Assembly (NCBI GenBank): GCA_905236985.1
Contig: CAJORF010000099.1
Coordinates: forward strand, 1-64,000
Direction: 5' to 3'
DNA from: an uncultured Bacteroidaceae bacterium
Lineage (GTDB): Bacteria; Bacteroidota; Bacteroidia; Bacteroidales; Bacteroidaceae
Length of the DNA stretch: 64,000 bases
Shown: in pieces, positions 1,939 to 20,049 of the stretch
Layout of the letters: every line of letters begins with the position of its first letter
Numbering within the stretch: the first letter of the stretch is position 1
Made by a program: the position numbers and the translations under genes
The notes under the pieces: model-generated
Seen by the model: the letters and a program-made list of their open reading frames with translations, nothing else
What the model was told of the DNA's origin: nothing
The model's database searches: none

Positions 1939-4900
1939 TTATCTTACAACTTTGTTGAGTACTTTCTTGCCACGGCTGACATAGATGCCTTGGCGCAGCT
2001 TGTTATTTGACATTCCCTGACCTTTCACCTTGCGTCCGCTAAGGTCGTACCAGTCCTCGGTCTCCTGTTCTCCGCTGACGAGGTCAATGGAGGTATAGGC
2101 TTTCTCGAGGTCGATGACATACGGCTCCCAAGGCGTGCCAATGTTGTCATCGCTGACAAACATCCGCGTCTTGTCGATGGTGAGGATTTCATCATTGATG
2201 CAGGCGCGTATGTCAAGGGGCTTGCTACTGCCCTGACCGGCGATGATGAGGATGTAGAGGCCGTTGTCGGCACGTGCTGCGGCGCGACATTCCTCGTCAA
2301 TAAAGACAGCGATCTCGGCGGTATCAACGACCTCCTCACCGTCCTTGAGCTGCACGACCATAGTCATGTTGTCGGGATAGTCATGCGGATCGACGGGATC
2401 GAAGATGCTGAGCGGAGCTGCCCGGCGTATGGGAGCGCGCAAATATGGCGAGATGGCCGCGGCGGTGCTGATGGAGGGATAGACAAACTGCTTGCTTTCT
2501 ACGTCCTCAGTGCTGTAGTACATGTATCCCTGTCCGCTCTCGAGCGCCTTGAGGTTGCCCTCCCAGGTGTAGCCTGAGTAGAGTGCGATGCCGGTCTGCG
2601 ACTTGATGCGGTCTCCCTTTTGTGGGTTGGCACCTGCCAGTGCCAGATCGACGTTCATCGTGGTGAGCGGTGTGTAGGCGATCCAGTTCCATCCCTTGTG
2701 GAGCTCCACAGGCGTCTCGCTGAGGTTGACTTGTCGTCCGGTGATGGAAAGCCTTTCGGGCAGCGGGTTGCTGTTGGCCTTGCGCTCAACCTTCATCTTG
2801 TACATGGTGTTGGCAGCGATTGTCAGGTTGCCGCTCCATAGCAATCCGTTACTCCATGCAGCTTGTGTGCCATGATTCTTGAGGATGACCGACCAGGTGT
2901 TGAGGCCGCTGAAGACCTGATCGAGATAGGTCGTCTGAGGCTCTACGCCAAGAGAGATCCAGTTCCAGTTCTGGTGTACGGCCATGAGTTGCTCGATCTT
3001 GTCGCTCTTCATCCAGATGGCTGGATTGTCGAAGTCGCCAATCAGCTTGTCATGCTCGAAGGGGATGCTGGGCTGCGGAGTACCTGTGGACGACTGGGTC
3101 TGGGCATTCGGCATGGTGAGGGTTGCTTCGGTGTATGCAACTCCCTTTGCGGCATCCCAAATGCGGAAGGTGACCTCCTTGCCGAGGTCGAAGCCCTCGA
3201 TATCATTGGCGAAGATGGTCATTGTGACGTAGGCAGCTCCTCGCACTTTCTCGGGTGATGCCAGTCCGCGGCACTCGCCGTCGATGAAAGCAGCGACCTG
3301 ACTCTCGGCATTCTCCATGAGGAGTCCGTTGATATAGAGTTGGCCAATGATGGTCATCTGATGCTCGTAGCGAGTGGGGTCGAAGCTCCAGTCAGGACGT
3401 TGTCCCTTGACGACCATGACGATGCGCAGGGGTTCGAGGATCTCATTGTTGCCTTGGAGTCCTATGGTCACTTCGTAGTTGCCGACAGGCACGAGCGGGT
3501 CAACCTTGAACCGGAGGGTCTTAGTCTTGAGCGGTGCGAGGTCATCGTTGCTCTCACTATCAACGAGGGACAGCCATTCAGGCATATTATATAAGGTGTA
3601 GTACTCGGTGTTGCCACTCTTGTTTTGAATGTCAACGTCGAAGGTGTAGTCGTTGCCATACATCTTGTTGATATTCACGGAGTCCTTAGTCCACGTGAGC
3701 GTGTTCTGCTGCACGAAGGCAGTCCAACGGATGGGTGCTGAGGTGTTGCCGTGCAAATCATGTATATCGTCGATGGTGATGTTGAGCGTTGTGCCTTCGA
3801 TATCACGCGGCGATATGGTGGAACTGTTGAGACTGATGACGATTTTGCGTTCCGAAGCCACTGGCTTGGCGATGATGCGCGTCTCGGAGGGGGCATTCTT
3901 CAAAGGCGGTGCCGATGCAACGATATACAGATTTCCGTGCAGTGCGACACTGTCTTTCTTCGTGATGCCCGGTGCCATATTCTCGGTGGACATTACAATT
4001 TTTTTCTCGCCGTTCTCAACGCCCCATTTGTTGAAGGGATAGTAGGCGGAGAGTCCTCGTGAATAGATGTCGGCAGTGTCGAGTTCGTTGTACATATTAG
4101 CCAGCAGTCGCTTCTCGGTGATGGCAGCGTTCCAGATGCGCAGCTCGTCGAAGAAAGCCATGTCACAACCTATGCCAAGCCGTATGGAGTCACCCTCAAT
4201 GGGCGGCACATCGGCCTCGGCAATGACGGCTATTCGCCTTCCGTTGAGATAGAAACTTGCAGCCTGTCCGCGAACGACATTGAGTGCGAAGTGTTGCCAT
4301 GTGCTATTTTCATAGAAGAAGTCGGAAGACGCCACGACCTGTGTCTTGTTGCCGTATTCGAAGTGAATGTTATGAGCGTTGTCGTAGTAGAGTCGGAGGC
4401 GGTTGTTCGGGTTCGAGCCAGTCTGGAATATGACTGCCGTGCTGTCGATAACAGACTGTGGGTCGTGCCAAAGCTCGATGGCGTAGCTGTCGCCCGGGCT
4501 GGTGTTGATGCGTGAAATATCGGCTGCGATACCGCTGGGTTTGTCGATGCGCGCGGCGTAGTTCGTGTTTTCGAGGAGCCATCTGCCATTGACGAAGAAG
4601 TCGTGCGTATGGCGGGCGTCAGCTGCCAGATGACCGTGACCCTCGTTCATGGGCCAGTAGTTGGTGAGGCCATAGACATAGTTGTCCTTCGCCTGGTATT
4701 TGGTAGCAGCTGCCTCGTGAACATCACGGTAGATATTGAAGAGGCTCAGGTCGTGGATAGCACCATTCATCTTGCCGATATAGAGGTAGTTGTCATCAGC
4801 GTAGCTGACGGCGTCGATTTCCTTTACGGTGACCCTCTGCGCATTGAAGAGCTCGACGGAGGTCGTGTCGTACTGTGCAAGAACGGAGAAAGTCATGTCG

Positions 4901-7900
4901 CTGCTCTTGTAGCTTACGACGATGTATGTCCAGGTGTTCTTAGGCAATACATCATTGCTTGTGTAGGTTCTTCCGGCAATGGCGACGACAATACGTCCGA
5001 ACTCGTCCACCAACAATGCGAACTTGTCGAGGCCCTCACCCTGATGGATGATGGTGCCTTTATCTTCCCACTTGAACCAGAAGTCCAAGGAGAAATCGCC
5101 ACTGATGAAAATGGGGTTGTAGGTCATCATATCATCGCCGTAGGGCAGTAACCGCAGTGCTACTTCGTGGTTGACGGGTTGCTGGTTGAGCTTTGCGGTG
5201 ACGATGACGTTCTTGTCGCCCACGTAGCCGGGTACGATGTTTTCGTTGAATTCCACGCTGAGCTCGTCGCCGTAGCCATAAATGCCGTTGGTGGGCTGCG
5301 GTGTGGTGAGGGCCATAGGACGGGTCATATCCTTGACGACGGTGACGGGTTCGCTATAGACGCGTATCATCTCTGTGTCGTAGGGGGTGGTGGTGAAGGC
5401 GCGGAAGGAGTAGGTTCCCTCGGGGAAGTTGGTCTGCTCCTTCATGTTCACTGTGACGCGCAGGTCGCCCGTCTTTGGCAGTATGCTGAAACTGGTGCTC
5501 GTGGAGTCCTTGGGATTGACCACGAAGGTGTGGTAGTCCTGCCATTGCGTGCTGCCCTCGAAGCGGTACTGTAGTCCTACGTCATGCAGGTTCTTGAACT
5601 GGCGGTCGAAGTTGGTGATCTTTGCCTCCAGCAGCCCGTTGGTGTTTGCGGCGTTGACCACGGGTTCGTTGATGACGAGGTCAACGGGCGACGACGAGGG
5701 CTTGAAGTGGACGTTGAGGGTGACCGAGTCGTAGATCTTGAAGGGCTGGAACTGCGAGGCGTAGTTGATTTGGATGCCTGTGTAGTCGAGCACGCTCTGG
5801 TCGGTCTGGCGCACGGTGATGACTTTCGTCGTGGCGACGCCCGGGTCGAGATAGACGGTGCGTCCGCTCATGGGGACACCGTCCATGAGGAGCTCGAGTC
5901 CGTTGGTATTAGTACCTTCCACGATGATGAGGTTGTAGAGAAGCGGTACTTCCTGATTGGTCGTGGAGCCGTTCTTCAGGTGGAGGGTGAACTCGCCCAT
6001 CGATCCCGCCGGAACGTCGGTGAGGGTAGCGCTCTTGGCGCCTACCTTGCCGTCGGTGCTGATGGAGATGACGGGCTTCTCCATCTGCTCTGTGCCGTAG
6101 GAGAGGATGTGCTCGCCCTTATCGTGGAACTGCGTCTTCTCTTCGTCCTCGAAGGGGTTGTAGCTCTGACCGCCCCTCAGCAGGAAGATATCGCTCCATC
6201 CGCGCGGCGAATTGAAAATATCTACGGTGAAGTCCGTACCCGGATTGCCGTCGTTGAAGTCGTAGTCGAACTCGGCGTAGGTCTTCTCGTTGTCGTCGTA
6301 CTCGCCGTCCTCGTTGACCCAGGTGTGTCCTACCTCGGCCTTGAACTCCCAGTTGGCACCGAACGAAGCGCCTGCCGAGACGCCAATCCTGTGCTTGACG
6401 GAGCCTAATCCAGTGAGGCTGTAGGAGTCGGAGGAGATGTTGGATTCGGTGGTATCGCGCCGCTCGCTGTAGGCATAGCCCGTGCCGCCGTCGAAGGAGC
6501 GGTTCTGGTCGAAGTACTTGGCGCGGTCGTTGAAGGCCTTGATCTTGTCTTCCTCGTTCCAACTGAGCACCTGATGCCAGCGCTCGATGGCTGAGTTGTA
6601 GCTGAGCACCATATCGCTGGAGCGCCCCAGTCGTCCCTGCTTCCACACGTAGGTAGAGTCCTTTCCGTAGTTGGGGTCATCGGGCTCGAGCCACGTGAGA
6701 TAGACGTCCTGGTCGGTGTTGTTGACATAGTTGACGGCAGCGATACTGTCCTTGTATTCGAGCAGCGCATTGCGCGTCTCCTCGATCTTGGGTAGCATGG
6801 TGTTGATGATGTCGTACTGCGAGTAGGTGAAACCTGTGCGGATGCTGTCGCTCATGCTGATAGCGTCCTTCAGTCCCAGTACGATGCCCGAGGCTTCGCG
6901 ATGGAAACCGAGCTTGCGGCACTGACCGATGATCAGGTTGTGCGATGTGCCGATGAAGACGTCGCCGGCAGCGCCCACATACTTGGAGCCGGTGCCAGTG
7001 GAGATGCTGTTGGCGGTGGTCTTCACCCAGGTCTTGTCGGTCTTGGTAGTCCATTCGCCCGTGCCTTTCTCGCCGACGGTGGCGATGGTGTTGACATTGG
7101 ACGTGGTGACAATCATGACTCCCATGCCCACGCCCTGCATGAGGCGCGAGCCCCAGATGAGCTCTGCCGAGAGCTGTTCAGATGCCGACCACTTGCGTAT
7201 GCGGTTCTCAATCTTGGTGTTGATGGTACCGGTCTTCCATGTGGTCTTGGACTTGGAGCCCGGCGGGTCGCGCAGCACCATCGACACGATATCAGGTCCC
7301 TGAGTGACGAAGTTGTTGCCGTCGGTGAGCTCGCCCAGGACGATACCGTTGAGCTGTATGGGGGCGTAGGTGCGCTTGTTGCGCTCGAAGGAGAGGCGGA
7401 ACTGGCGCGTGTAGGGAGCCGTGATATTGGGCAAGCCCGTGGTGAACTTCACCTCGTTGTATCCGTCTTCGTCGAGCAGCAGCTGGTTGCGTTTCAGGTT
7501 GTATATATCGCCGGCCTTGAGATCGGTCACGCTGGGATCTACGACTTTGGCCACGACGTCCTGCTTGTCGCTCATCTCATTCTCGATGGTGAGCTTCTGG
7601 CCGTTCAGCGGGATGGTGTCGCAGACGGCGGGATTGCTGTCGTGGTTGACATAAGCCTCGAAACCGTGCAGCTTGAAGGTGTACGACGTGTTGCGGGCGA
7701 AGATGGGGAACTCGTAGGTGTATTTGATGGAATTGTCGTCCTCTACCGTCCAGATGTCGGTGATGTCCGTCGTCTCTGTGGAGCTGACGCTGTAGTTCTT
7801 GAGCTCGCGTTCGCCAAAGGCTCCGTTGCCGTTGACCTGCCACATCTGTATCTGGGGTTCGGCAAAATAGGTGCGGACGAGCTTGGTGTTGTACTTGTAG

Positions 7901-10900
7901 TACTGCCATACGCTGTCGGCACCTTCGACGGCCACTTTCAGCGAATCGGAGATGTCTTTCTTCACGTTGGTAAGGTCAATCTCGGAGAGCGTGTTGAACT
8001 CGATATCGGGATTGCTCTCCACACGTATGCTCTTGGTAGAATACTTCAGCGGCGGCAGCAGGGCCGAGAACTCGCCCGTCTGCGGGTCGGTCTTGATGTA
8101 GATGTATTTAGCGTTGTCGCCGGTGCCCGTCCACGACATACTTTGGATGCTCGTCGTGTCGCTCTCCCACGCACGCTCGACGGCGGCCGAGGTGATGTGG
8201 TCGTCCTGACAGTTGAAGGAGAAGGATTCGTTGTTCAGCTTCAGCTGTAGTATGGCCATACCAATATTATTATTTGAGAGTCCGAAGCCTACGGCCAGCG
8301 TGTCGTTGCGCTCGCCGCCACTGACACGGCCGACGAAGTTCACCAGCGTGGAGTCGGCAAAGTCATGGGTGAGTGCACGGTCGAAGTTGTGAACGCCCGT
8401 CGTCGGGAAGCGTCCGCCTTCGACCATCGTGTGCCCGTCGAGTTTAGCTTCGACATAATGCTCGCCGATGGGCACCGAGATCTCGTAGTAGCCGTTGGCA
8501 TCGGTCTTCTTTGTCTCGCCGTTGCCGGTGACCAGCTCACCATCAACATAGAACATGACGCCCTCGGCAGGGATATTTGTTCCTGCATAATAGACGTAGC
8601 CCGCCATGGGGAAGCTGCTGACGTCCTCGAAATCGATGTTATTGGCGGTGAGGCTCGTCGGGCTGACGAACATGGAGCGCGTGTTGGGGTTGAACTGATG
8701 AATGCCCAACGAAGGCACGAGCTTGTAGTTTGTGCCGCCCTGCTGGAAAGGCACGCCGCGAATGATGTAGTCGCCCTCGGCATCAGTAAGGCCATAGAGC
8801 TTCAGCAGCTCCGGCACGAGGGCCGACGGGCGCGCGTTGATGCCCACTTCGGGATGGTTAAGCTGATAAATGCCGTCCTGACGCGCTACGTCGAAGGCGT
8901 AATCGACAATGTTTATTCCTTCGTCGAGCGGCCAGTAGAGGAAGAGGCCGTCCTCGCTGCCGCCCAGGATGCGCGTGTAATTGGCCGTGATCTCTTTATC
9001 GGAGAGGGCCCGGCTCCACAGACGTATGTCGTCCACATAACCCTCAAAAGAGAGGTCCATGGTGCGGTTGGAGCCGCCAACGGAGAACACCGTATGACCT
9101 AACTCAAAGGCGTCCCATCCTCTATCGCTGACGTTCATCGTGGCCGAGCGCAGAGTGTCGGAGCCAACGTAGAAGGTCCACTGGCCGTTGTCGTACACGG
9201 CGGCCAAGTGGGTGAAATCGCTGTTGTCGAACTTGAGGTCGGGGAACCGCTGCACACTCCCCGATGCGCCGCCGGAGAAGTCGCTGACGCGCAGGAAGTA
9301 GTGAGTGCCGTCCTCTGTCTCCATGCCCAGCTCGAGGGCGTTGTTCAATCGGCAGAGGCTCCTGACGGCTGCACCGTTGGCGCTCATGGGCTGGAACCAC
9401 AGCTGTAGCGTGAGGGGCTTCTGTCCGTTGAGCTTGTCCTTTTCCTTGTCGTCGGCTGGTATCCAAGTGAGTCCCTTGCCCTCGCCTGTGATGTGGCGCG
9501 ACAGGAACTGCGGCGACTCGCTCGTAGCATCGACGCTGGACTTCACTAGGCTCACGCGCGCACCGGCAACGGCTGTTCCCGTGCCGTAGGAGATATGTCC
9601 CGTGATGGTGCCGCGAGCCTGCGAGAAGCCGGGCGTCACCTGAGCGTCGGTCTGCACCAACTGGTCTTCACACTTGGCGCCATAGGCCACGACGCTATAT
9701 TCATAGTAGGAGCCAGCCATCACGCGGTCGTCTTTGTAAGAATATTCCGACTGATGACCCTTGATTTCATTGGTGAGAAGGGTCCATTCGCTGGTGCCGA
9801 CGGGACGGCGCAGCACGCTGAAAAGGATATCATCGTCGCCAGGTCGTTCCACCTTCCACTTCACTTCGACGAACTTTTCCTCGGTGCCTGTCGTGGCTTT
9901 CACCTCGCTGATGTAGGCACCGGCGGGCAGATTGCACACCAGCGTATCGGAGTAGAGCTCCTTGCCGTTGATAGTCGTCATGATGCGATAGACGAACTGG
10001 TCGCACACCGAGCCGCCGGATTCGAGGTACGAGGCCGAGCTTTCATTAATGTCGATGGGCAGCGTGGTGAGAGGCGTCCAGGTGGTGGTGCCCAAGCGAC
10101 GCTTGTCGATGCGCCACTCACAGCCGCTGAGCTGCACGTTGTACTCCCATGTCAGATGTATGCCTGACAGGTCGCTACGGTCCTGTGCCAGCTTGATAGG
10201 CACTTCCATCTTGGTATTCACCGTGGCCTCTTCCCACAGGTCATATTTCGTGTGAACGTCGCCTTCGCCCGGCAGTTCGGTCAGTTTGTTTTCAAATTTC
10301 TCTTTCAGGAAGTCGGGGAGGAACACGACGCGATAGACATATATCTTGTCGTAGTCGATGTTGTCATCCTCCACCTTTAGTTTTGTGCTGGTGCCGCTAA
10401 TCTCCTGAAGCACCTCATACTCGCTCGTAGGCCGTCCCTTCTCGTAGCGGAGCACATACCATGTACCGTCGGTCTGACACTCTATCGTGACAGGCCTGTT
10501 GTTGAAAAAATCCGAGATCGATTTCTTGCGCGTCCATTGTATAATGGTCTTCTTCTTCCATTTGTCAAATTCTGCTGTGAGCACATCCACGCGTGTATAG
10601 GGATTGAACATGATACCCTCGTCGTAGGCGGCGTCGGATGGAGCGTGAAGCATGTATAGGTAATGGTCGCTGCCGGAATAGCGCATCGTATGCCGCTTCA
10701 CATCGGCGGTGTAATCGAGCTTATAGATGCGCAGTGGCACGGTATAGGACTTCACAGGGATGGTGAACGTGTATTCGGCGTTCTGGTCCGTGCCGCCTGA
10801 GCGGCTTTCAGCGTTGAGCCGATAATAGACTCTCTCGGTGGTATAGGTGCTCGTGCGATAACTCACTAAGCCGTCGAAATATTTGTCCAAATAGCGCGTA

Positions 10901-11577
10901 TTGGATTCCGTGGCAGGCGTGCCGCTGACCTTAAAGACGTAGTTGCCTTCATCGTCGAGCTCCACACTGTATTTGGGCATCATATTCTTGTACGATGAGA
11001 TATTCAAACTGCGTTCATACTGGAAATTACGCACTTCATTGCCATCGTCCCACTTGGTGCAGCACGCGATATAAATCTTTCTGACTCCGTCGCGCAAATC
11101 CCATTCCGTAGGCTGGTACTCCAGCGTGAACATATACTTGAACGTCCCAGTGTCTTGAATTCTACTGAAATAGACGGGACGTGTGGACCAATTCACGGTA
11201 GGAGTCTGGTAACCCACGAAATCGGCCTCGGCAATGTCTGTCCTGATACCTTCGGCATTCTCGATGGTCACGACGACGTGTGTGGAATTCTTGTCATCTA
11301 CCGTGCCGTAGTTGACGCGGATGTCCCAGTTCCATTTGTACATGTGCTTGCTGACGTCGAACATGTAGTATGTTCTGAAGTCCATAAAATTCTTCTTCGT
11401 GTTGTCGGTCTGATAACGGAACGTGTATTCGCCGCCATCGGAGTCCTGTCCGTTATCCTTCGCCGTCGTCGAGTACTTCCACGTAGAAGGAGCATAATAA
11501 GCCCACGTCGGCGAGGCGCTGGCCAATAGCACCAGGAATGTTATTGCCAGTAGTCTAAGGTAATGATTCTGTCTCAT
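1939..11577 (-). CDS. Giant secreted multidomain protein (3212 aa) with LamG-like and Fn3-like modules and a C-terminal sorting-like tail
   Basis: Signal peptide MRQNHYLRLLAITFLVLLASASPTWA; repeated LamG-like segments (LYWPLDEG, NYWPMNEG, AYYPFNKWG); tail WYDLSGRKVKGQGMSNNKLRQGIYVSRGKKVLNKVVR. Confidence 0.85.
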   Translation of the reverse strand: MRQNHYLRLLAITFLVLLASASPTWAYYAPSTWKYSTTAKDNGQDSDGGEYTFRYQTDNTKKNFMDFRTYYMFDVSKHMYKWNWDIRVNYGTVDDKNSTHVVVTIENAEGIRTDIAEADFVGYQTPTVNWSTRPVYFSRIQDTGTFKYMFTLEYQPTEWDLRDGVRKIYIACCTKWDDGNEVRNFQYERSLNISSYKNMMPKYSVELDDEGNYVFKVSGTPATESNTRYLDKYFDGLVSYRTSTYTTERVYYRLNAESRSGGTDQNAEYTFTIPVKSYTVPLRIYKLDYTADVKRHTMRYSGSDHYLYMLHAPSDAAYDEGIMFNPYTRVDVLTAEFDKWKKKTIIQWTRKKSISDFFNNRPVTIECQTDGTWYVLRYEKGRPTSEYEVLQEISGTSTKLKVEDDNIDYDKIYVYRVVFLPDFLKEKFENKLTELPGEGDVHTKYDLWEEATVNTKMEVPIKLAQDRSDLSGIHLTWEYNVQLSGCEWRIDKRRLGTTTWTPLTTLPIDINESSASYLESGGSVCDQFVYRIMTTINGKELYSDTLVCNLPAGAYISEVKATTGTEEKFVEVKWKVERPGDDDILFSVLRRPVGTSEWTLLTNEIKGHQSEYSYKDDRVMAGSYYEYSVVAYGAKCEDQLVQTDAQVTPGFSQARGTITGHISYGTGTAVAGARVSLVKSSVDATSESPQFLSRHITGEGKGLTWIPADDKEKDKLNGQKPLTLQLWFQPMSANGAAVRSLCRLNNALELGMETEDGTHYFLRVSDFSGGASGSVQRFPDLKFDNSDFTHLAAVYDNGQWTFYVGSDTLRSATMNVSDRGWDAFELGHTVFSVGGSNRTMDLSFEGYVDDIRLWSRALSDKEITANYTRILGGSEDGLFLYWPLDEGINIVDYAFDVARQDGIYQLNHPEVGINARPSALVPELLKLYGLTDAEGDYIIRGVPFQQGGTNYKLVPSLGIHQFNPNTRSMFVSPTSLTANNIDFEDVSSFPMAGYVYYAGTNIPAEGVMFYVDGELVTGNGETKKTDANGYYEISVPIGEHYVEAKLDGHTMVEGGRFPTTGVHNFDRALTHDFADSTLVNFVGRVSGGERNDTLAVGFGLSNNNIGMAILQLKLNNESFSFNCQDDHITSAAVERAWESDTTSIQSMSWTGTGDNAKYIYIKTDPQTGEFSALLPPLKYSTKSIRVESNPDIEFNTLSEIDLTNVKKDISDSLKVAVEGADSVWQYYKYNTKLVRTYFAEPQIQMWQVNGNGAFGERELKNYSVSSTETTDITDIWTVEDDNSIKYTYEFPIFARNTSYTFKLHGFEAYVNHDSNPAVCDTIPLNGQKLTIENEMSDKQDVVAKVVDPSVTDLKAGDIYNLKRNQLLLDEDGYNEVKFTTGLPNITAPYTRQFRLSFERNKRTYAPIQLNGIVLGELTDGNNFVTQGPDIVSMVLRDPPGSKSKTTWKTGTINTKIENRIRKWSASEQLSAELIWGSRLMQGVGMGVMIVTTSNVNTIATVGEKGTGEWTTKTDKTWVKTTANSISTGTGSKYVGAAGDVFIGTSHNLIIGQCRKLGFHREASGIVLGLKDAISMSDSIRTGFTYSQYDIINTMLPKIEETRNALLEYKDSIAAVNYVNNTDQDVYLTWLEPDDPNYGKDSTYVWKQGRLGRSSDMVLSYNSAIERWHQVLSWNEEDKIKAFNDRAKYFDQNRSFDGGTGYAYSERRDTTESNISSDSYSLTGLGSVKHRIGVSAGASFGANWEFKAEVGHTWVNEDGEYDDNEKTYAEFDYDFNDGNPGTDFTVDIFNSPRGWSDIFLLRGGQSYNPFEDEEKTQFHDKGEHILSYGTEQMEKPVISISTDGKVGAKSATLTDVPAGSMGEFTLHLKNGSTTNQEVPLLYNLIIVEGTNTNGLELLMDGVPMSGRTVYLDPGVATTKVITVRQTDQSVLDYTGIQINYASQFQPFKIYDSVTLNVHFKPSSSPVDLVINEPVVNAANTNGLLEAKITNFDRQFKNLHDVGLQYRFEGSTQWQDYHTFVVNPKDSTSTSFSILPKTGDLRVTVNMKEQTNFPEGTYSFRAFTTTPYDTEMIRVYSEPVTVVKDMTRPMALTTPQPTNGIYGYGDELSVEFNENIVPGYVGDKNVIVTAKLNQQPVNHEVALRLLPYGDDMMTYNPIFISGDFSLDFWFKWEDKGTIIHQGEGLDKFALLVDEFGRIVVAIAGRTYTSNDVLPKNTWTYIVVSYKSSDMTFSVLAQYDTTSVELFNAQRVTVKEIDAVSYADDNYLYIGKMNGAIHDLSLFNIYRDVHEAAATKYQAKDNYVYGLTNYWPMNEGHGHLAADARHTHDFFVNGRWLLENTNYAARIDKPSGIAADISRINTSPGDSYAIELWHDPQSVIDSTAVIFQTGSNPNNRLRLYYDNAHNIHFEYGNKTQVVASSDFFYENSTWQHFALNVVRGQAASFYLNGRRIAVIAEADVPPIEGDSIRLGIGCDMAFFDELRIWNAAITEKRLLANMYNELDTADIYSRGLSAYYPFNKWGVENGEKKIVMSTENMAPGITKKDSVALHGNLYIVASAPPLKNAPSETRIIAKPVASERKIVISLNSSTISPRDIEGTTLNITIDDIHDLHGNTSAPIRWTAFVQQNTLTWTKDSVNINKMYGNDYTFDVDIQNKSGNTEYYTLYNMPEWLSLVDSESNDDLAPLKTKTLRFKVDPLVPVGNYEVTIGLQGNNEILEPLRIVMVVKGQRPDWSFDPTRYEHQMTIIGQLYINGLLMENAESQVAAFIDGECRGLASPEKVRGAAYVTMTIFANDIEGFDLGKEVTFRIWDAAKGVAYTEATLTMPNAQTQSSTGTPQPSIPFEHDKLIGDFDNPAIWMKSDKIEQLMAVHQNWNWISLGVEPQTTYLDQVFSGLNTWSVILKNHGTQAAWSNGLLWSGNLTIAANTMYKMKVERKANSNPLPERLSITGRQVNLSETPVELHKGWNWIAYTPLTTMNVDLALAGANPQKGDRIKSQTGIALYSGYTWEGNLKALESGQGYMYYSTEDVESKQFVYPSISTAAAISPYLRAPIRRAAPLSIFDPVDPHDYPDNMTMVVQLKDGEEVVDTAEIAVFIDEECRAAARADNGLYILIIAGQGSSKPLDIRACINDEILTIDKTRMFVSDDNIGTPWEPYVIDLEKAYTSIDLVSGEQETEDWYDLSGRKVKGQGMSNNKLRQGIYVSRGKKVLNKVVR

Positions 11578-11602: not shown

Positions 11603-12547
11603 TTATTGTTGTTTAGTTAGTCTAAGGTCTGTTGCCACAACGAATTCGCCTTCTTTGAGCCGAGCTGTGGCAGTGCCGGTGTAAGTGCCTAATGAGTTGG
11701 TCACGGTGAAGCGATAAACGACGGACTCAGAAGTTGGCACCATGGCAACATAGACCTCCGTCCGCCCCGATGCACTGATGGTGAGTGGGCCTGAGAAGTT
11801 CGTTGCTGTTGCATGAACATCATCCTTCGACTTTACAGCCGTGTCATCCATCGCCGCTACGGTAGCCGAATGCGGATATTTGCCCCCACGTGAATCATTT
11901 GGATAAGTATCATCATAACTGATCTCAAGCGTGTTGATGGGAATGGCAGCGGAGCCGTCGGTGAACGAGAACTTGCACAGCGTGAGCAAGCTCTTCATCA
12001 GACCCATCGAGGCCGTGGCTGTGTTTGCAGTCACAGCGGTCACCGTAGCTACGCCGTAAACGTAATGGAAAGAATTTGCCACATCATCGAGATCACCAGT
12101 TTGATCTGCGAGATTGATGGTGAAGGTCTTCGCTGCTGTAAACGTAGTAGTCGGATAGACAACAGCGATATCATCGCTTAGGGCACAAGTAACAGAGCCC
12201 GAGAACTGCGAGAAAGCAGCAGTCTGAGTAGCCGTTAGTGGCCCTGTGACAAGTTGAGATAATTCCGCTTTTGTTTGATCCAGATTACAATACGTCAGCG
12301 CATCCCCCGCCTTCCACGATGCCGTCATCGTTGAACCATTTTCCGTCAGAATCGCCCTAGTCAGCGCGCTCTTCGTCGCTGTGTTGTCCTCCACCTGTGT
12401 GATGACGAGATGACGTGTCTTCACTTCATTTACGTCAGTCGGGGTAACCACATCCTCGTTCTTCTCCGAGCAGCCCGTTGCCGCTATCAGCAGCACTGCG
12501 CTCATGAGCCAGTTCATCAAAAGGTTAGTATGGATACGATTTTTCAT
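11603..12547 (-). CDS. Fimbrillin-like lipoprotein
   Basis: Lipobox LIAATGCSEKNE; features seen in Bacteroidales fimbrillin-like proteins (ATKSALTRAILTENGSTMTASWKAGDALTYCN). Confidence 0.65.
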   Translation of the reverse strand: MKNRIHTNLLMNWLMSAVLLIAATGCSEKNEDVVTPTDVNEVKTRHLVITQVEDNTATKSALTRAILTENGSTMTASWKAGDALTYCNLDQTKAELSQLVTGPLTATQTAAFSQFSGSVTCALSDDIAVVYPTTTFTAAKTFTINLADQTGDLDDVANSFHYVYGVATVTAVTANTATASMGLMKSLLTLCKFSFTDGSAAIPINTLEISYDDTYPNDSRGGKYPHSATVAAMDDTAVKSKDDVHATATNFSGPLTISASGRTEVYVAMVPTSESVVYRFTVTNSLGTYTGTATARLKEGEFVVATDLRLTKQQ

Positions 12548-12604: not shown

Positions 12605-12814
12605 TTACTGTTTGCTCCAGTCATCGTCCCAGACGTCCTGAGCGCCCTGACTTTTTACGGGGGTATTTGGTTGACTAAAGCCGCAACTGGTAGATTCCTT
12701 ATATCCGGACATCGTTCCGCTTATGCCGCCCTGTTGGCTCGTTTGAAGCAGGCACTGTTCATGCTGAAGATATACTACCGTCAGCATCGGCTGTTGATAT
12801 GTTTTGTATGTCAT
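12605..12814 (-). CDS. Small peptide with C-terminal VWDDDWSKQ
   Basis: 69 aa ORF immediately upstream of the fimbrillin-like gene; shares N- and C-terminal motifs with ORF 18121-18318; textbook promoter upstream. Confidence 0.7.
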   Translation of the reverse strand: MTYKTYQQPMLTVVYLQHEQCLLQTSQQGGISGTMSGYKESTSCGFSQPNTPVKSQGAQDVWDDDWSKQ

Positions 12815-12852
12815 AGTAAATAGAATGTTTTTTAAGTGGTTCTAACTGGGCG

Positions 12853-12884
12853 CAAATATAAGTATTTTCATACGTTACAGCAAA
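12853..12884 (-). promoter_or_regulatory. Bacteroidetes-type promoter for peptide/fimbrillin/giant-protein operon
   Basis: Minus strand TTTG (12881-12884) N20 TATATTTG (12853-12860), ~38 nt before the peptide ATG. Confidence 0.7.
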
Positions 12885-13646
12885 CTTTTGGGCAAAAAAA
12901 ATACAGAAAAACCTCTCATTCGCCTCACAAATAGCCCGCACAGAAAAAATGATGCAGACGATACACTCGAAAAAAAACATCATTTTGTTCGTTTCAGGCT
13001 CAGAGGACAATAAGCTAAAAACCCACCCTTTTTTTGCCTCGCGCGCGTTAGCAGCAGCAGCAGCCACATTTTCTTTTATTTTCTTTTGTGCACTTTTCTT
13101 TTTTTCTTTGATTCTTACTTTTCAATTTTGGACTTTTCAGGCTCAGTCGCGAAATGCCTGCTGCAACAGTAATGATGTTTGGAACACCTGGGTTTTCCAA
13201 GCCAAAAGCATAGGCAAATCAGAAAAAAACTGAAGGAGGCTGACTTAGAACAGGCTTTTCGGACTGAGCCACATAGGCACAGATGATAACATAGGTCGTA
13301 AGACCACAGGCATCAGAAGAGGTGTTTTTTATGTTTTTGTCTTCATCAATCGATTGCTCAACAAGAGACTTTTTAAGGAAAAGAAATAGGAATAATTAAG
13401 TTGAAACGCACAATGACTTAGAATAATCACGTTCAGTAATTTGAAATATATTAGTTCTCATCATTTCTGGATTAAACTCTTGATCATTCCCGATTATTTC
13501 TTTCAAAAAACATCGACAAGCCGATTCGCTTCTAAAAGAGAGTGAAAAGGGGGAAAAAAGGGCTCAAAATGGTGTATTCTGCACACTCATAAATGTGGTT
13601 TTAAGGCCTATTTCAGGGCATCTTGAAAGATTTTTGGACATTTTCG

Positions 13647-13677
13647 TTTGTCCGTTCACAAATAATACGTATCTTTG
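13647..13677 (+). promoter_or_regulatory. Bacteroidetes-type promoter for the 1397-aa gene
   Basis: TTTG (13647-13650) N19 TATCTTTG (13670-13677). Confidence 0.7.
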
Positions 13678-13789
13678 TGCTGCTTTTGCGCATATAAGGC
13701 ACCTTTTTGCGCGATTCCACAACTTTACTATTTTACTCTATAATCGACAAAGAACTAACAAACTATAACTAAAACTTTACTATTAAACA

Positions 13790-16700
13790 ATGAAAAAAAT
13801 CTTATTTCTATTAATGGCTCTGCTGACGGTGGGTGTCAGCGGAGTGTGGGCTGAAGATTATAGCGGAAGCTATTATTACATCAGCACAAGCACCCAATCA
13901 CACTACGGCTTTTATAACGGGAATAATGCAACAAACTATGGCAGTACTTCCGCTAAAACTAGTGCTGTTTTATTTAAATTTGAAAAGACGGGGACATATG
14001 ATGAGTATTATTGGTATAATTGTACAAGCAAGAAATATATCTCCGTTGATGAGAGTGGAAATCTTTTATCCGCAAACAGTTATAGTGATACAGATGCTTT
14101 TAAGTGGTATATTATCGATAATGGCGATGGGACAGTTAAAATCACTGATAAGGCCAACTACAATAGTGGATCACCAAGTAATGCATTGGTTACATTAGGT
14201 GGCAATGGTTCTTGGTGGGGTGTTAACGATTTGTCTAATAGCACCTACACGAACAAGGCATGGAAGTTGATTCCTGCTGTTGAGATGAAAAAGCCTTACT
14301 ATATTGGCCTTGGACGTGGTGAGAATCGTTACCTCCAATATAGTAGCGATGACAACAAGATGAAGCAGGTTGTAGCTAGCACAAAAGACCTCAGCCATGT
14401 CTGGTACTTTACTGACGAAGGTGATGGCGTAATAAATATCCATCCTATAACAAGTTCTTCCGCTATGGGCTATGCTTCAGATGCAGGTGGCGGAGCTGAT
14501 AAAATTTCTACAACAAATACGATAAAATCCTTTAAGCTTACACCTACAGATCAAACCACCTTCCCAATTGCTTTCTTAGCGAGTGGTCTAAGTGCTACTC
14601 TCTACATAAGTAACTTTGGAGGCACCAATAATGCCAATATGGGTTTGTATGGTACAATTGCCGATGCTGGCACACGTATGAAGGTTGAAGATGCAAGTTT
14701 AAGTGTTAACGCATACATTGGTGCAACTAAAACTATAGGTGCGACTGAATGGAAGACTCAAAGCAACTGGTTACTTTGCGATACTTGGAACAGCAACGGC
14801 CCTGGATATTCAAGTTCCAACATGTGGTCACCTATATACTTGAATGGTGTAACGGCCACTGGAATAGCGTTTGACGGATGGGCATTACAGTTAAGTCTTG
14901 TAAACTCCTCATTGACAGCAACAACAGGAAAAATACAAACCGATGGGGATGGGACATTAACAATTGATGTGGACAAAGAGTCAACACTTGATTTGACGTT
15001 AACATCATCAAATAATAACCCAGGTACTCATGTTTTCAATATTGATGGTTCGTTGACAATTAATATGGGGGATAACGCGTGGAATAATTCTAGCAGTACC
15101 AATAACATTAACCTTGGAACAACAGGAAGCTTCACCTTTACCGCGAACAGTGCTATAACAATAGGAACAAATCCGAACTTTACTATAAATGCAACCTTGG
15201 CAGATCCTGGAGCATCATATAATACGGTTGAATCGCAAACCCTTGCAACATTTACAAATGTCACCATCACGACATTATCAGTTAACATTTCTGGTACAGA
15301 CGGATGGACATCGGTTGATAGTAAAGCAGCATTGGAAACCCAAACTAGTGCCGGTAAATATTATTTCTTAGAAAACACATCATCTGGTGTTGTCTTGTAC
15401 ATGTATAAGCAAACAGTATATAACGTCCCTGCAGAAACTACAGTTAATCTCAGTGAAATAGACGGTTATTCATCCTATGAAGTATTCAATGTTCCGTCGG
15501 GTGCAACACTTAATGTCGATGTCGATAACTTTGATTTGACTAAGATTCATGGTGCAGGCACAATTACATTTAATGATGCAACTACAACAACCAGTAATAT
15601 AGCGAGCGACTTCACGGGCACGTTAAATGTTAACAATGCAAGTGCCACAGTTACTATCAATGGTAATCTTGGAGCTTGTACCTTACAGAAAACATTGGGT
15701 ACTCTCAACTATGCTGGTAACGACTTAAATGGAACCACTCTTGATGGTGTGGTGCTAAACAGCACTACAGCACGAATTACAACCAGCAATACAGTCAATA
15801 TCAAGAATCTTGCAGGCTGTAATCTTCCTAACCCAAGCGGGAATTATGGCTATGTATTTATTGGCAGTGGCGGAACGATTAATTTATATGGCACTTGTGA
15901 CTTTACTAAGAAAGCAGACGGAACAACGGCCGAGAGCAGCAACCTTGGCTATGGTTCCGGGGTAAGTATTGTGGTCAAAGAGGGGGCTACCGTTACGGTA
16001 GGAGTGGTATATAATTCTGGAACAGATAATGCTTCGGTTACGGTAGAAAGCGATGCCATTCTTAATACTATAGGTTGGACGCACGCTGATAACGTATTAT
16101 ATGCAACTAATTTGACGAACAACGGTACTATAAATTTAAGTACGGGAAGACTCCATGAAAATATTGGTACAAGTGTAGTACATACAACGCTTAGTGGCAG
16201 TGGCACATTGAATATTGCAGAAGGGGCGACGTTGGAAGTCTCTTCAGTCCCAAGCGCGATAACTCTATCTGGTGCTGGCACAGTAAAACTTACCATATTC
16301 CCAAATAGTACAGCACCCACTATGACCGACTGGACGGGCGCAGTAACTCTACCAGATAAAAGTTCTCAAACTGCAGAAATCGAACGTATTCTAAATGTTT
16401 GGGGTAACGAAAATTCAACGATTAAAATAAATAATCTGAATGGTTATTTTTCAACAGGAGCAACCGTAACGCCTACATTAAACATATTGTCAGGTAAGAC
16501 TCTTACTATCAATGATGGATACTCTGGAGATGTCGCATATCCAACATTTAAAAAAGTGACAGGTGAAGGGAATTTTTCACTAACATTTAATCCAAATAAA
16601 GTATTTCGCATTAATATAAATACACTAATAAACTTTACCGGAACCTTGACTGGTCAATACAAGCCAATCGTTGTAGAAAACCTTGTCTTGGCATCTGCTC

Positions 16701-17983
16701 CCAATCTCAATGATAGGCTATTTAAGACATCAGGAACTGTTACTTATTCCAAGCCAGATTCTAAACTCTATATTGGTGAGACCGAGAAAACTGCGGCTTA
16801 TGCATGGGAGGAAAAAACTGTTGACGAAGTTAAAGGTTACTATATCACCGAATCTGTTCCAGCAAATATTGCAGATGCAATTGCTCTTGTTACTCCATAT
16901 TACAATGGTGGCCATGTTGGAGCAGGCCTTGGTAAATATACAATCTCACTTGGCGAAACGTCGTATGCAAATATGAAAGATTTTGGAGATGCGGTTACGG
17001 CCTGGGCAACGATAGGAGATTGTGTTGAGCCGACAATCGTCATCAATATGCCAACAAATGGTTTTTACCGTTTTACAAGCCAGAACAATTTGGCTCAGAC
17101 AGAAAACGTTGGCAAATATCTTCATAACTACTTAACCGATGGGGCTCTTGCATTAAACTCGACAGAAGATAAAACTACAATTTTCTATGTTGACTGTACG
17201 AATAACACGCTTCTATCATACGATAATGGCCGATATCTCAACAATTATAACGTAGAACCTGCTGTAGGTAGTAGTTCTACTTGGACAATCGAGGAAGGAT
17301 CAGAACTTGGTAAATATGCTTTGAAATGGGCAGACGGATGGTATGCTTCTGATTGGAATACAACAGATAATATAACCTATGGCCGAAAAGATGCCAATGC
17401 ATTGTGGGCTATCGAACCAGTAGAGGAACTCCCCATCACGTTGAATCAAGTAGGAGCAAATTATTTTGCAACATTCTGTGCTCCTTTAGATGTTACGCTT
17501 GATGGCGCTACTGCTTATACGCTTTCCAAAGAGGGAACAGATAAATTGAGACTCTCTGCGGGTTCTTCAACCGTTGCCGGTGGTACTCCTGTACTACTTA
17601 TAGGAACTAGTGCGTCAGCTACTGCAACAATCACCTCTAGTACGGCAGCACCTATTACGGACGAAACCGCTCTTACAGGAACTTACGAAGCTAAGGCCAT
17701 TAATGGTGAAACTGATTATGTACTGGGAACAGACGAGACAAAGATCGGTTTCTTCCATTGGGTGGATAATACATTAAAGGGCTTCAGAGCTTATCTTACT
17801 GGCGAAACAATGGCAGGCGTAAAAGGCTTCTACATTGATGAAGAACAGCTGACAGGAATCGAAGAAATAGTAGGTGAAATAGCGACAGAGAATGATGTCA
17901 TCTACAATCTTGCTGGCCAGCGTTTGGGCAAGCCTCAGAAAGGCGTAAACATTATCAATGGCAAGAAAGTAATAGTAAAATAA
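13790..17983 (+). CDS. Large secreted repetitive protein (beta-solenoid-like) with C-terminal sorting-like tail
   Basis: Signal peptide MKKILFLLMALLTVGVSGVWA; Thr/Asn/Gly-rich body; tail DVIYNLAGQRLGKPQKGVNIINGKKVIVK. Confidence 0.8.
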   Translation: MKKILFLLMALLTVGVSGVWAEDYSGSYYYISTSTQSHYGFYNGNNATNYGSTSAKTSAVLFKFEKTGTYDEYYWYNCTSKKYISVDESGNLLSANSYSDTDAFKWYIIDNGDGTVKITDKANYNSGSPSNALVTLGGNGSWWGVNDLSNSTYTNKAWKLIPAVEMKKPYYIGLGRGENRYLQYSSDDNKMKQVVASTKDLSHVWYFTDEGDGVINIHPITSSSAMGYASDAGGGADKISTTNTIKSFKLTPTDQTTFPIAFLASGLSATLYISNFGGTNNANMGLYGTIADAGTRMKVEDASLSVNAYIGATKTIGATEWKTQSNWLLCDTWNSNGPGYSSSNMWSPIYLNGVTATGIAFDGWALQLSLVNSSLTATTGKIQTDGDGTLTIDVDKESTLDLTLTSSNNNPGTHVFNIDGSLTINMGDNAWNNSSSTNNINLGTTGSFTFTANSAITIGTNPNFTINATLADPGASYNTVESQTLATFTNVTITTLSVNISGTDGWTSVDSKAALETQTSAGKYYFLENTSSGVVLYMYKQTVYNVPAETTVNLSEIDGYSSYEVFNVPSGATLNVDVDNFDLTKIHGAGTITFNDATTTTSNIASDFTGTLNVNNASATVTINGNLGACTLQKTLGTLNYAGNDLNGTTLDGVVLNSTTARITTSNTVNIKNLAGCNLPNPSGNYGYVFIGSGGTINLYGTCDFTKKADGTTAESSNLGYGSGVSIVVKEGATVTVGVVYNSGTDNASVTVESDAILNTIGWTHADNVLYATNLTNNGTINLSTGRLHENIGTSVVHTTLSGSGTLNIAEGATLEVSSVPSAITLSGAGTVKLTIFPNSTAPTMTDWTGAVTLPDKSSQTAEIERILNVWGNENSTIKINNLNGYFSTGATVTPTLNILSGKTLTINDGYSGDVAYPTFKKVTGEGNFSLTFNPNKVFRININTLINFTGTLTGQYKPIVVENLVLASAPNLNDRLFKTSGTVTYSKPDSKLYIGETEKTAAYAWEEKTVDEVKGYYITESVPANIADAIALVTPYYNGGHVGAGLGKYTISLGETSYANMKDFGDAVTAWATIGDCVEPTIVINMPTNGFYRFTSQNNLAQTENVGKYLHNYLTDGALALNSTEDKTTIFYVDCTNNTLLSYDNGRYLNNYNVEPAVGSSSTWTIEEGSELGKYALKWADGWYASDWNTTDNITYGRKDANALWAIEPVEELPITLNQVGANYFATFCAPLDVTLDGATAYTLSKEGTDKLRLSAGSSTVAGGTPVLLIGTSASATATITSSTAAPITDETALTGTYEAKAINGETDYVLGTDETKIGFFHWVDNTLKGFRAYLTGETMAGVKGFYIDEEQLTGIEEIVGEIATENDVIYNLAGQRLGKPQKGVNIINGKKVIVK

Positions 17984-17994
17984 AATTTATGATC

Positions 17995-18084
17995 AATTCG
18001 TGAGTTAATTCATGATCATTCGTGTAAAAACAGAAAACATTCATATCTTCTAACATTAATTGGCCATGAATTAGCCCACGAATT
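17995..18084. repeat. Imperfect 20-bp inverted repeat between 1397-aa gene and downstream peptide gene
   Basis: AATTCGTGAGTTAATTCATG (17995-18014) versus CATGAATTAGCCCACGAATT (18065-18084), 18/20 complementary. Confidence 0.75.
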
Positions 18085-18120
18085 ATTCTCGAATTATTTT
18101 AGTAACCTATAACAAATATA

Positions 18121-18318
18121 ATGATTATGAAAAAGAGATATATCACCCCTTCTACTTTTACAGTTCGCATTGAATTAGAGAACCGTATTCTACAAATCTC
18201 AACAATAGATGTTGTCGATAATGGAGATCCGGTACAAAGTTTAAGAGGCGGTTGGGTCAAAGAGAATACTGCCGACCGCTCAGGCTACAACGTCTGGGAC
18301 GATGACTGGAGCAAGTGA
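18121..18318 (+). CDS. Small peptide with C-terminal VWDDDWSK
   Basis: 65 aa ORF following the 1397-aa gene; MKKRYITPSTFTVRIELENRILQIS...VWDDDWSK matches the pattern of ORF 12605-12814. Confidence 0.75.
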   Translation: MIMKKRYITPSTFTVRIELENRILQISTIDVVDNGDPVQSLRGGWVKENTADRSGYNVWDDDWSK

Positions 18319-18398
18319 ATGATGGTTCACTGTTCATGTTTAAAGTTTCAGTTTTTTCCTGAGCTTGTCGAAGGACATGATTATTCAATAGAATTCAA

Positions 18399-18437
18399 GG
18401 AGGCTGGGCAGTGGTGCCCAGCCTCCTTTCTTGTTCT
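18399..18437 (+). terminator. Rho-independent terminator
   Basis: Perfect 12-bp stem GGAGGCTGGGCA-GTGG-TGCCCAGCCTCC followed by TTTCTTGTTCT. Confidence 0.85.
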
Positions 18438-18738: not shown

Positions 18739-20049
18739 CTAATCTTCGTGCCGGCAGAAACGGCCCTCAATGCCTGAAAGTGGTATGTTTTCCATCCATT
18801 GCTGGTTGACATACGGTAGCATGCTGAAACGAAGGCCATGAAGCGACAACTCAGGGAACTCATTGGTGACGAAGGTACGTAATGACTTGGCCTTGACGTT
18901 CTCCTCAGCCTTGACTTCGCAGGGGAAAACCTGACCGTCGTACTGGACGAGAAACTCTATCTCGAGTTGGGAGTTGTCCTTACTGTAGTAATAGGGCTGA
19001 ATATCTCCGATGCCAACAAGCTCTTGAAGAAAATAATTCTCAGTATAGGCTCCCTTGAACTCTGTAAAGGCATTGTCACCAAGAAGCATATCCTGCGGAC
19101 GTGAGTCGGAGAGCAGAGCGAGGAGACCGCAGTCGAGCAGATAGATCTTAAAGGCATCATTATCCTTATAGAACTTAAGCGGATATTTGGGGGTCGAAAC
19201 ACGATACACCTTGTACACGAGACCCGCATCGACGAGCCATTGGATAGCAGCTTCGTAGTCAGCGGCACGGGCTCCCTTCCTGATAGCTCCAAAGATGAAC
19301 TTCTTATTCTCCTTGGCAAGTTGAGCGGGAATGCAGTCCCAGACCTGACGGATGCGATGGATCATCGTTTTGCCGTGCTTACCGAAATCGAGATAGTAAG
19401 TCTGTAGGATGTCAGCCTGAACTTGTCGAACGACTTTGGGGTCTGAGGTCTCAACCCACTTACCCACAGCCTCAGGCATTCCTCCCACGAAATAATACTG
19501 GCGTAGCATCTCAGTGAGCAGGTCGTGAAGGGTGTGGAGAAGCGGCCAGTCTGCAGAAAGGATGGCATCGCAGAGTTGTTTTCTGTTCATGGCAAGGAGA
19601 AATTCGGTGAAGGTCATGGGGTACATCTTTATCGTGTTAACCTTACCAACGGGGAAACTCTCATCTTCACTCAAGGCAAGCCCCAGAAGCGAACCTGCGG
19701 CCACGACGTGGAGAGACCGCAAATCTTCGCAGAAATATTTTAGCGAGGCGATGCCATTAGGAACCTCCTGAATCTCATCGAAGAAAAGGAGTGTACGGCC
19801 CGGCTCAATCTTCACCTCATAATTGACCTCAATAGCATGGATAATGCGCTGGATTTCGAAATCGCGGAAGAGGGTTTCGACAAAGGCGTTGTTGTGGCAA
19901 TTGACATAGACAAGGTTCTGGAATTCGCGATGGCCAAGTTCCTTCAGAATATAGGTCTTGCCAACCTGACGAGCTCCAAGAAGAATAAGGGGTTTGCGTT
20001 CTGGAGCGTCTTTCCAGGCGAGAAGCTTATGATATACAGTCCTTTCCAT
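18739..20049 (-). CDS. ATP-binding protein, AAA_14/DUF4143 family
   Basis: Walker A LLGARQVGKT, Walker B LLFFDEIQE, AAAGSLLGLAL, C-terminal EFLVQYDGQVFPCEVKAEENVKAKSL. Confidence 0.88.
   Translation of the reverse strand: MERTVYHKLLAWKDAPERKPLILLGARQVGKTYILKELGHREFQNLVYVNCHNNAFVETLFRDFEIQRIIHAIEVNYEVKIEPGRTLLFFDEIQEVPNGIASLKYFCEDLRSLHVVAAGSLLGLALSEDESFPVGKVNTIKMYPMTFTEFLLAMNRKQLCDAILSADWPLLHTLHDLLTEMLRQYYFVGGMPEAVGKWVETSDPKVVRQVQADILQTYYLDFGKHGKTMIHRIRQVWDCIPAQLAKENKKFIFGAIRKGARAADYEAAIQWLVDAGLVYKVYRVSTPKYPLKFYKDNDAFKIYLLDCGLLALLSDSRPQDMLLGDNAFTEFKGAYTENYFLQELVGIGDIQPYYYSKDNSQLEIEFLVQYDGQVFPCEVKAEENVKAKSLRTFVTNEFPELSLHGLRFSMLPYVNQQWMENIPLSGIEGRFCRHED

Follow-up and report, generated by a model that had tools for sequence, protein, structure and literature searches.

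Small YxxP-leader peptides multiplied beside type IX secretion cargo genes in Prevotella-like bacteria: probable precursors of an LPP-like peptide family

Two small peptides and their neighbours in the window

The stretch of DNA analysed here, referred to as the window, comprises 64,000 nucleotides of contig CAJORF010000099.1 from an uncultured Bacteroidaceae bacterium (assembly GCA_905236985.1), and its elements of interest are two small open reading frames (ORFs), peptide 1 and peptide 2, that lie in transcription units with genes for very large secreted proteins (Table 1). They are located on opposite strands about 5.3 kb apart, and their translations are exactly as quoted in an earlier note on this DNA. 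Both begin with a YxxP-type leader (YQQP in peptide 1, YITP in peptide 2) and carry a serine 20 residues after the tyrosine (Y+20), followed by a variable middle and a similar end (VK...DVWDDDWSKQ and VK...YNVWDDDWSK, respectively). Compared directly, in a search of their own genome, the two match with an E-value of only 0.04-0.06. However, a profile built from 67 peptides, all from other genomes and none from the window genome, matched peptides 1 and 2 alone across the six frames of the window (next-best match E 0.083), and the likeness that the earlier note had noticed therefore exceeds chance. Neither peptide contains a stretch resembling a signal peptide, as the note had also stated: the maximum Kyte-Doolittle mean over 15 residues is 0.7 for peptide 1 and 0.4 for peptide 2, compared with 2.4 for the N-terminus of the neighbouring 1397-aa protein. 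Modelled alone with AlphaFold2, the peptide gave a low-confidence structure (pLDDT 65, pTM 0.20; the first 20 residues were best). A search of the PDB returned no match to the peptide.

Peptide 1 is the first gene of its unit and is followed after 57 bp by the gene for a 314-aa lipoprotein and then by that for a 3212-aa secreted protein, which ends in a short C-terminal signal of the type IX secretion system (T9SS) kind (YDLSGRKV...GIYVSRGKKVLNK). This order, and a Bacteroidetes-type promoter motif ahead of it, agree with the earlier description, while the label 'fimbrillin-like' for the lipoprotein found no support among hidden Markov models (HMMs), where the only match was DUF4972 at E 0.0055, below its cut-off. 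In the second unit, peptide 2 starts 137 bp 3' of the stop of the 1397-aa ORF, a scan for promoter motifs found none between the two, and a terminator-like hairpin closes the unit. Beyond it, on the minus strand at 18739-20049 of the window, lies a gene for an AAA_14/DUF4143 ATPase (Pfam E 2e-28 and 1e-32), which has no relation to peptide 2 as far as seen.

Table 1 Features of the window, of the window genome (G000) and of relatives that lack a T9SS
Feature	Location	Strand	Support or content
Peptide 1 (P0001, 69 aa)	12605..12814	(-)	Independent profile E 1.1e-11
Peptide 2 (P0002, 65 aa; MKK start at 18127)	18121..18318	(+)	Independent profile E 1.8e-19
Promoter-like TTG-N20-TATATTTG, Bacteroidetes-type, 5' of peptide 1	12853..12883	(-)	Motif only
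314-aa lipoprotein (GCSEK lipobox), directly 3' of peptide 1	11603..12547	(-)	
3212-aa secreted protein, third gene of the peptide 1 unit	1939..11577	(-)	Tail profile E 1.6e-6
Promoter-like TTG-N19-TATCTTTG, 5' of the 1397-aa cargo gene	13648..13677	(+)	Motif only
1397-aa secreted protein	13790..17983	(+)	Tail profile E 5.7e-28; AlphaFold2
Terminator-like hairpin, 14-pair stem, closing the cargo and peptide 2 unit	18397..18428	(+)	
HprK-like kinase, window genome	G000:C123 33166-34062		TIGR04352 E 2e-5
SpI-like peptidase, window genome	G000:C123 34072-34620		TIGR02228 E 0.005
PqqD-like RRE, window genome	G000:C123 34689-34958		PF05402 E 7e-16
G051 locus	About 12 kb		PqqD, NTP_transf_5, HprK-like, Wza, Wzc, YxxP peptide, lipoprotein, OmpA-like, SpI, MsbA-like exporter
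G087 locus			PqqD, 403-aa HprK::SpI fusion, peptide, lipoprotein
G185 locus			Peptide, lipoprotein, PqqD; NTP_transf_5 and SpI::ABC protein adjoining
G070, G163, G174 and G228 loci			PqqD, NTP_transf_5-like, HprK-like, (Wza,) Wzc, peptide, lipoprotein

The two peptides belong to a family with about 16 copies in the window genome. Matches at E <= 0.1 were present in 23 of 25 genomes of the same genus, its own included, with up to 15 copies there, and across its bacterial family the peptide was present in 134 of 201 genomes, with a maximum of 31 copies per genome. Named relatives with the peptide are rumen and gut Prevotellaceae/Bacteroidaceae metagenome-assembled genomes, and among 248 genomes sampled across the phylum, only the window genome and one class-mate gave matches. 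No Pfam or NCBIfam model covers the family, and neither a literature search for the WDDDW end nor plasmid records returned anything relevant. Members share a MKKxYxxP start, an amphipathic stretch, the motif [ML][IL]AxS, a variable middle rich in Asn, Ser, Gly and Asp, a VK and an acidic-aromatic end. Across 128 peptides the leader consensus was Y-x-x-P-x-[LTMI]-x-[VI]...[ML][IL]A-x-S; in 72% of them the serine stands exactly at Y+19, against a background of 9%, and 113 have it somewhere from Y+18 to Y+20. The YxxP-type motif occurred in 81/81 peptides of 50-70 aa with a variable core, a proportion that is partly a selection effect.

The C-terminus is less uniform than the invariant acidic-aromatic tail first proposed. 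The collected sets most often end in WDDDWS, but they were partly picked by that end, and the endings of window-genome copies picked via their cargo genes instead include WDIWGED, FWYFEW, FFDFQWE and WDIWADE; WDIW, WDNEW, FWYFEW and other ends occur in the family, and an invariant tail was rejected. Where the WDDDW core is present its codons show synonymous variation only, with a ratio of nonsynonymous to synonymous polymorphism (pN/pS) of 0.05 versus 1.08 for the ten preceding codons, in a set of which most sequences (44) had been found through that core. A possibly decayed copy, matching the profile in its C-terminal part only (G000:C138:10125-10208, minus strand), sits 3' of a tail gene (C138:10395-10670) that has no intact peptide.

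Type IX secretion cargo next to the peptides

The products of the large neighbouring genes end in IYNLAGQR..KGIYIVNGKKVxVK. In Prevotella intermedia, short T9SS C-terminal signals comprise cleavage in a TGI region, motif B, GxY/GxN in motif D, a basic motif E and three strands (PMC11969387), and the tails encoded beside the peptides resemble these: a TGI-like cleavage region comes first, motifs B, D (GxY/GxN) and E follow it, and the genome encodes the T9SS component SprA. This likeness is a property of the neighbouring cargo gene and not of the peptide. The model of the T9SS type A C-terminal domain (CTD), TIGR04183, was rejected as a label for these tails, since it matched 1/19 of them, marginally (E 0.037), and the short-CTD description fits instead. 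In the 1397-aa protein, the last 170 residues comprise a beta-rich penultimate domain (FRAYL/VKGF), a disordered linker with a cleavage-like TGI and the short terminal signal IYNLAGQRLGKPQKGVNIINGKKVIVK. In the AlphaFold2 model of these residues (mean pLDDT 83), the penultimate domain is rich in beta structure and a disordered linker connects it to a small unit at the C-terminus, which holds two assigned strands (158-169) and short bridges; Foldseek returned no significant match for the model in the PDB.

Linkage between the peptides and such cargo is recurrent. In loci collected by their peptides, 40/44 and 26/29 copies lay directly 3' of a T9SS-tail gene, and in the window genome a gene with a short C-terminal type IX signal immediately precedes 15 of the 16 copies; the median distance between cargo and peptide was 46 bp across 110 pairs. 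Seen from the cargo side, the window genome (2.8 Mb) encodes 93 short T9SS-type tails, and 15 of the 60 tail genes inspected have a peptide gene directly 3' of them. Nearly all peptide-linked tail genes fall within the 20 best-scoring tails carrying the FRAYL/VKGF penultimate domain, an overlap that is partly circular because the tail profile was derived from peptide-linked cargo. This domain was the sole feature noticed that distinguishes the roughly 15 of 93 tails with a linked peptide. Within a genome, the peptide's middle and C-terminal part tends to vary together with the penultimate domain of its cargo (r 0.68, versus 0.46 for the CTD), and in the window genome alone the corresponding values are r 0.31 (p 0.018) and 0.03. 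A search of open-access literature found no report connecting small ORFs with short-CTD cargo, and the main text of the P. intermedia study (PMC11969387) mentions no linked small ORF.

Enzyme clusters in trans and in cis

Among ribosomally synthesised and post-translationally modified peptides (RiPPs), YxxP is the motif by which the leaders of lasso peptides, PQQ and linear polyphosphorylated peptides (LPPs) bind a PqqD-like recognition element (RRE) (PMC13381572, PMC12710340). Among the 201 family genomes, a PqqD-like RRE was detected in 185 and an HprK-like protein in 167, and the two genes lie within 3.5 kb of each other in 80 of the 84 genomes compared. In Prevotella-like genomes they flank a gene for a peptidase resembling signal peptidase I (SpI; L258, L264-L269). 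There is one such cluster per genome, and that of the window genome is encoded outside the window on another contig (Table 1). In relatives, the HprK-like proteins match TIGR04352 at E 3e-6 and the SpI-like proteins match TIGR02228 at E 1e-4 to 6e-8. The kinase family conserves a P-loop (SGTGKST) and NDDxP, the peptidase family has an invariant Ser, His (+38) and Asp (+28 or +15) with spacing like that of LppS S29/H68/D93, and the RRE conserves the Asn and Asp matching LppB N33/D70, at a spacing of 38 (37 in LppB). A conserved secreted protein of about 150-180 aa (KMYIFGFAASF...) is encoded 5' of the HprK-like gene in several Prevotella-like clusters (L258:7688-8170, L265:7765-8202, L266:10947-11501 and L269:7280-7747); the one copy tested matched no Pfam family above cut-off.

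The peptides co-occur strongly with the kinase. Of the 140 genomes that encode both SprA and the HprK-like protein, 121 have peptides; the corresponding figures are 5 of 15 where SprA is present alone, 8 of 27 where the kinase is present alone and 0 of 19 where both are absent. Among T9SS-encoding genomes, presence of the kinase is thus a predictor of the peptides (121/140 versus 5/15, p 2e-5, a value that, like the other co-occurrence p-values, is inflated by shared ancestry). The presence of PqqD alone was set aside as a predictor because it is too widespread (185/201; p 0.004, odds ratio 5), and the HprK-like kinase discriminates better.

Eight of the 201 genomes have a peptide match and no detected SprA. 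One (G048) belongs to the same genus as the window genome and has 19 copies, mostly 3' of CTD genes, while in the other seven (G051, G070, G087, G163, G174, G185 and G228) the peptide is encoded within the machinery locus itself (Table 1), with a lipoprotein gene following that is Mfa_like_1 by Pfam in G163, where tested. In profile-negative G046 a YESP peptide occupies the same slot of the locus. An NTP transferase and an MsbA-like exporter belong to the cluster in G051 and G185, and in G185 a single protein joins the SpI-like domain to the MsbA-like ABC exporter. This SpI::ABC fusion and the HprK::SpI fusion of G087 support the view that these genes form a functional set. The 314-aa lipoprotein gene of the window occupies the same place after peptide 1 as the lipoprotein genes after the cis-encoded peptides, and the peptide 1 unit thus keeps an older-looking order, with the T9SS-tailed protein in third position. 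Two further YxxP peptides, about 6 kb apart and each directly 5' of a lipoprotein gene, occur in a genome of another family of the same class (G240; L271:191-367 and L271:6053-6208), and a simple motif scan of about 18 kb around them recognised no PqqD or HprK-like ORF.

Proposed maturation, rival explanations and known systems

Taken together, the leader anatomy and the association with RRE and kinase suggest that the peptides are probably precursors of an LPP-like RiPP family that has multiplied beside T9SS-cargo genes in Prevotella-like bacteria. Each precursor would be made together with the neighbouring cargo, and the PqqD-like RRE would dock on its YxxP leader; the HprK-like kinase may then phosphorylate the leader-proximal serine and the SpI-like peptidase trim the precursor, with cleavage near A|xS. 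Once released, the variable core, which includes the acidic-aromatic end, could be exported to act with the co-expressed surface protein. A more specific version is put forward tentatively: a genome-wide trans system in which 10-30 dispersed precursors are all phosphorylated and trimmed by a single set of enzymes, each precursor being co-expressed with its own T9SS cargo and matched to the last domain of that cargo, with the phosphopeptide serving as a cargo accessory. The earlier interpretation is thus borne out in part. Both the leader motif and the linkage to RiPP-type machinery favour the precursor peptide it proposed, and the position beside large secreted proteins can be sharpened to a position beside T9SS cargo genes, whereas the invariance of the tail did not hold and the dedicated cofactor role it also offered found no support. 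What it had named as support, namely many homologs, selection on the tail and a recurrent neighbourhood, was found in the 134 family genomes, in the pN/pS contrast (from a selection-biased set) and in a very strong association with secreted-protein genes across genomes.

Several observations weigh against precursors of this kind. The leader lacks the conserved H-Q and F-E-T of LPPs, so that the full consensus is absent, and its serine lies one or two residues further on (Y+19/20 instead of Y+18). The HprK-like and SpI-like assignments fall below NCBIfam cut-offs, the window genome has no peptide gene beside its enzyme cluster, and neither an NTP transferase nor an exporter was seen beside that cluster when the ORF list around L258 was read by eye. 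The in-trans link consequently draws on the motif, co-occurrence and relatives. Thirty-eight HprK-like-positive genomes have no detected peptide, some of them because the profile misses members (for example G046), and five T9SS-encoding genomes have peptides and no detected kinase, in assemblies that are incomplete. Finally, joint duplication alone could account for the Mantel correlation between peptide and cargo, and the secreted protein of about 150 aa beside the cluster could be the real substrate or partner of the enzymes.

The principal alternative is that the peptide is a cytoplasmic chaperone or escort that keeps a giant T9SS cargo export-competent without any RiPP chemistry. The absence of a signal peptide, the single peptide immediately 3' of each cargo gene and the closer co-variation of the peptide's middle and C-terminal part with the penultimate domain (r 0.68) than with the CTD (0.46) would all suit such a role. 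Nevertheless, it appears unlikely, as family members also occur without a T9SS, beside lipoproteins and PqqD/HprK-like loci, the leader serine and YxxP are left unexplained, and only about 15 of the 93 tail genes of the window genome have a peptide. It is less probable still that the Prevotella cluster of PqqD, HprK-like and SpI-like genes serves another substrate, for example the KMYIFGFAASF... protein encoded ahead of the kinase in several of these clusters, and that the YxxP and the serine at Y+19 of the peptides are inherited and unused. No YxxP ORF adjoins the cluster in T9SS-encoding genomes, as this explanation would have it, but the motif is kept in all 81 peptides (partly a selection effect) and the serine in most, and the kinase predicts peptides within T9SS-encoding genomes (121/140 versus 5/15, p 2e-5). 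A secreted or regulatory peptide (a pheromone or leader-peptide regulator), with a leader that serves an unrelated exporter, would account for the conserved leader, the hypervariable middle and the first place of peptide 1 in an operon with its own promoter-like motif, yet it is improbable given the lack of a double-glycine or signal sequence and the strong co-occurrence with the HprK-like kinase, and because most copies lie 3' of cargo with no conserved gene downstream, which also makes cis-regulation of a following gene unlikely.

Among known systems, the peptides share a YxxP-type leader and a PqqD-like RRE with lasso (paeninodin type) and PQQ precursors, and an HprK-like kinase with the paeninodin type (PMC13381572). 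Unlike lasso peptides, their core lacks the lasso ring pattern, and the ORFs of 12 PqqD neighbourhoods included neither a recognisable macrolactam cyclase nor a B2 peptidase, a genome-wide search with the HMMs of these enzymes not having been made. The HPr-rel-A system (TIGR04352 HprK_rel_A, TIGR04353 PqqD_rel_X) and SynChlorMet ScmC likewise combine an HprK-related kinase and a PqqD-family chaperone in one locus, and matches to these families were weak but significant, all under the family cut-offs. The main text of a RiPP-mining paper on Bacteroidales mentions neither HPr nor YxxP.

The closest comparison is with the LPPs themselves (LppA/B/K/S/N/D of Paenibacillus alginolyticus), which are stated to be restricted to Bacillota and to have an unknown biological role (PMC13381572). 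Their precursors have a YxxPxVLxHQxIxFETxxS leader and variable C-termini; an HprK-like kinase phosphorylates serine 3 of the core, and an SpI-like peptidase cleaves the precursor in a reaction that needs the RRE (PMC13381572). LPP clusters hold 1-3 precursors, whereas here up to 31 per genome are dispersed beside T9SS cargo and away from the enzymes, with a conserved acidic-aromatic C-terminus and in Bacteroidota hosts. Precursor and enzymes are apart in the window genome and together in the seven SprA-less genomes with a machinery locus. Because the leader consensus and this co-location are lacking in the window genome, the family is filed as an LPP-like variant and not as an LPP member. The features in common are a precursor within 35-200 aa with a YxxP leader, a serine shortly after the leader and variable C-termini, a discrete RRE, an HprK-like kinase, an archaeal-type SpI-like peptidase with Ser-His-Asp and, in the T9SS-less Bacteroidota loci only, an NTP transferase, an MsbA-like exporter and a capsule-locus setting. 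If the peptides are indeed LPP-like precursors, an abundant and unannotated small-ORF family, up to 31 members per genome, would be explained as sharing one enzyme set, RiPP maturation would be tied to type IX secretion, the main route for giant Prevotella surface proteins, and the LPP-like class would extend outside the Bacillota with a first clue to its function.

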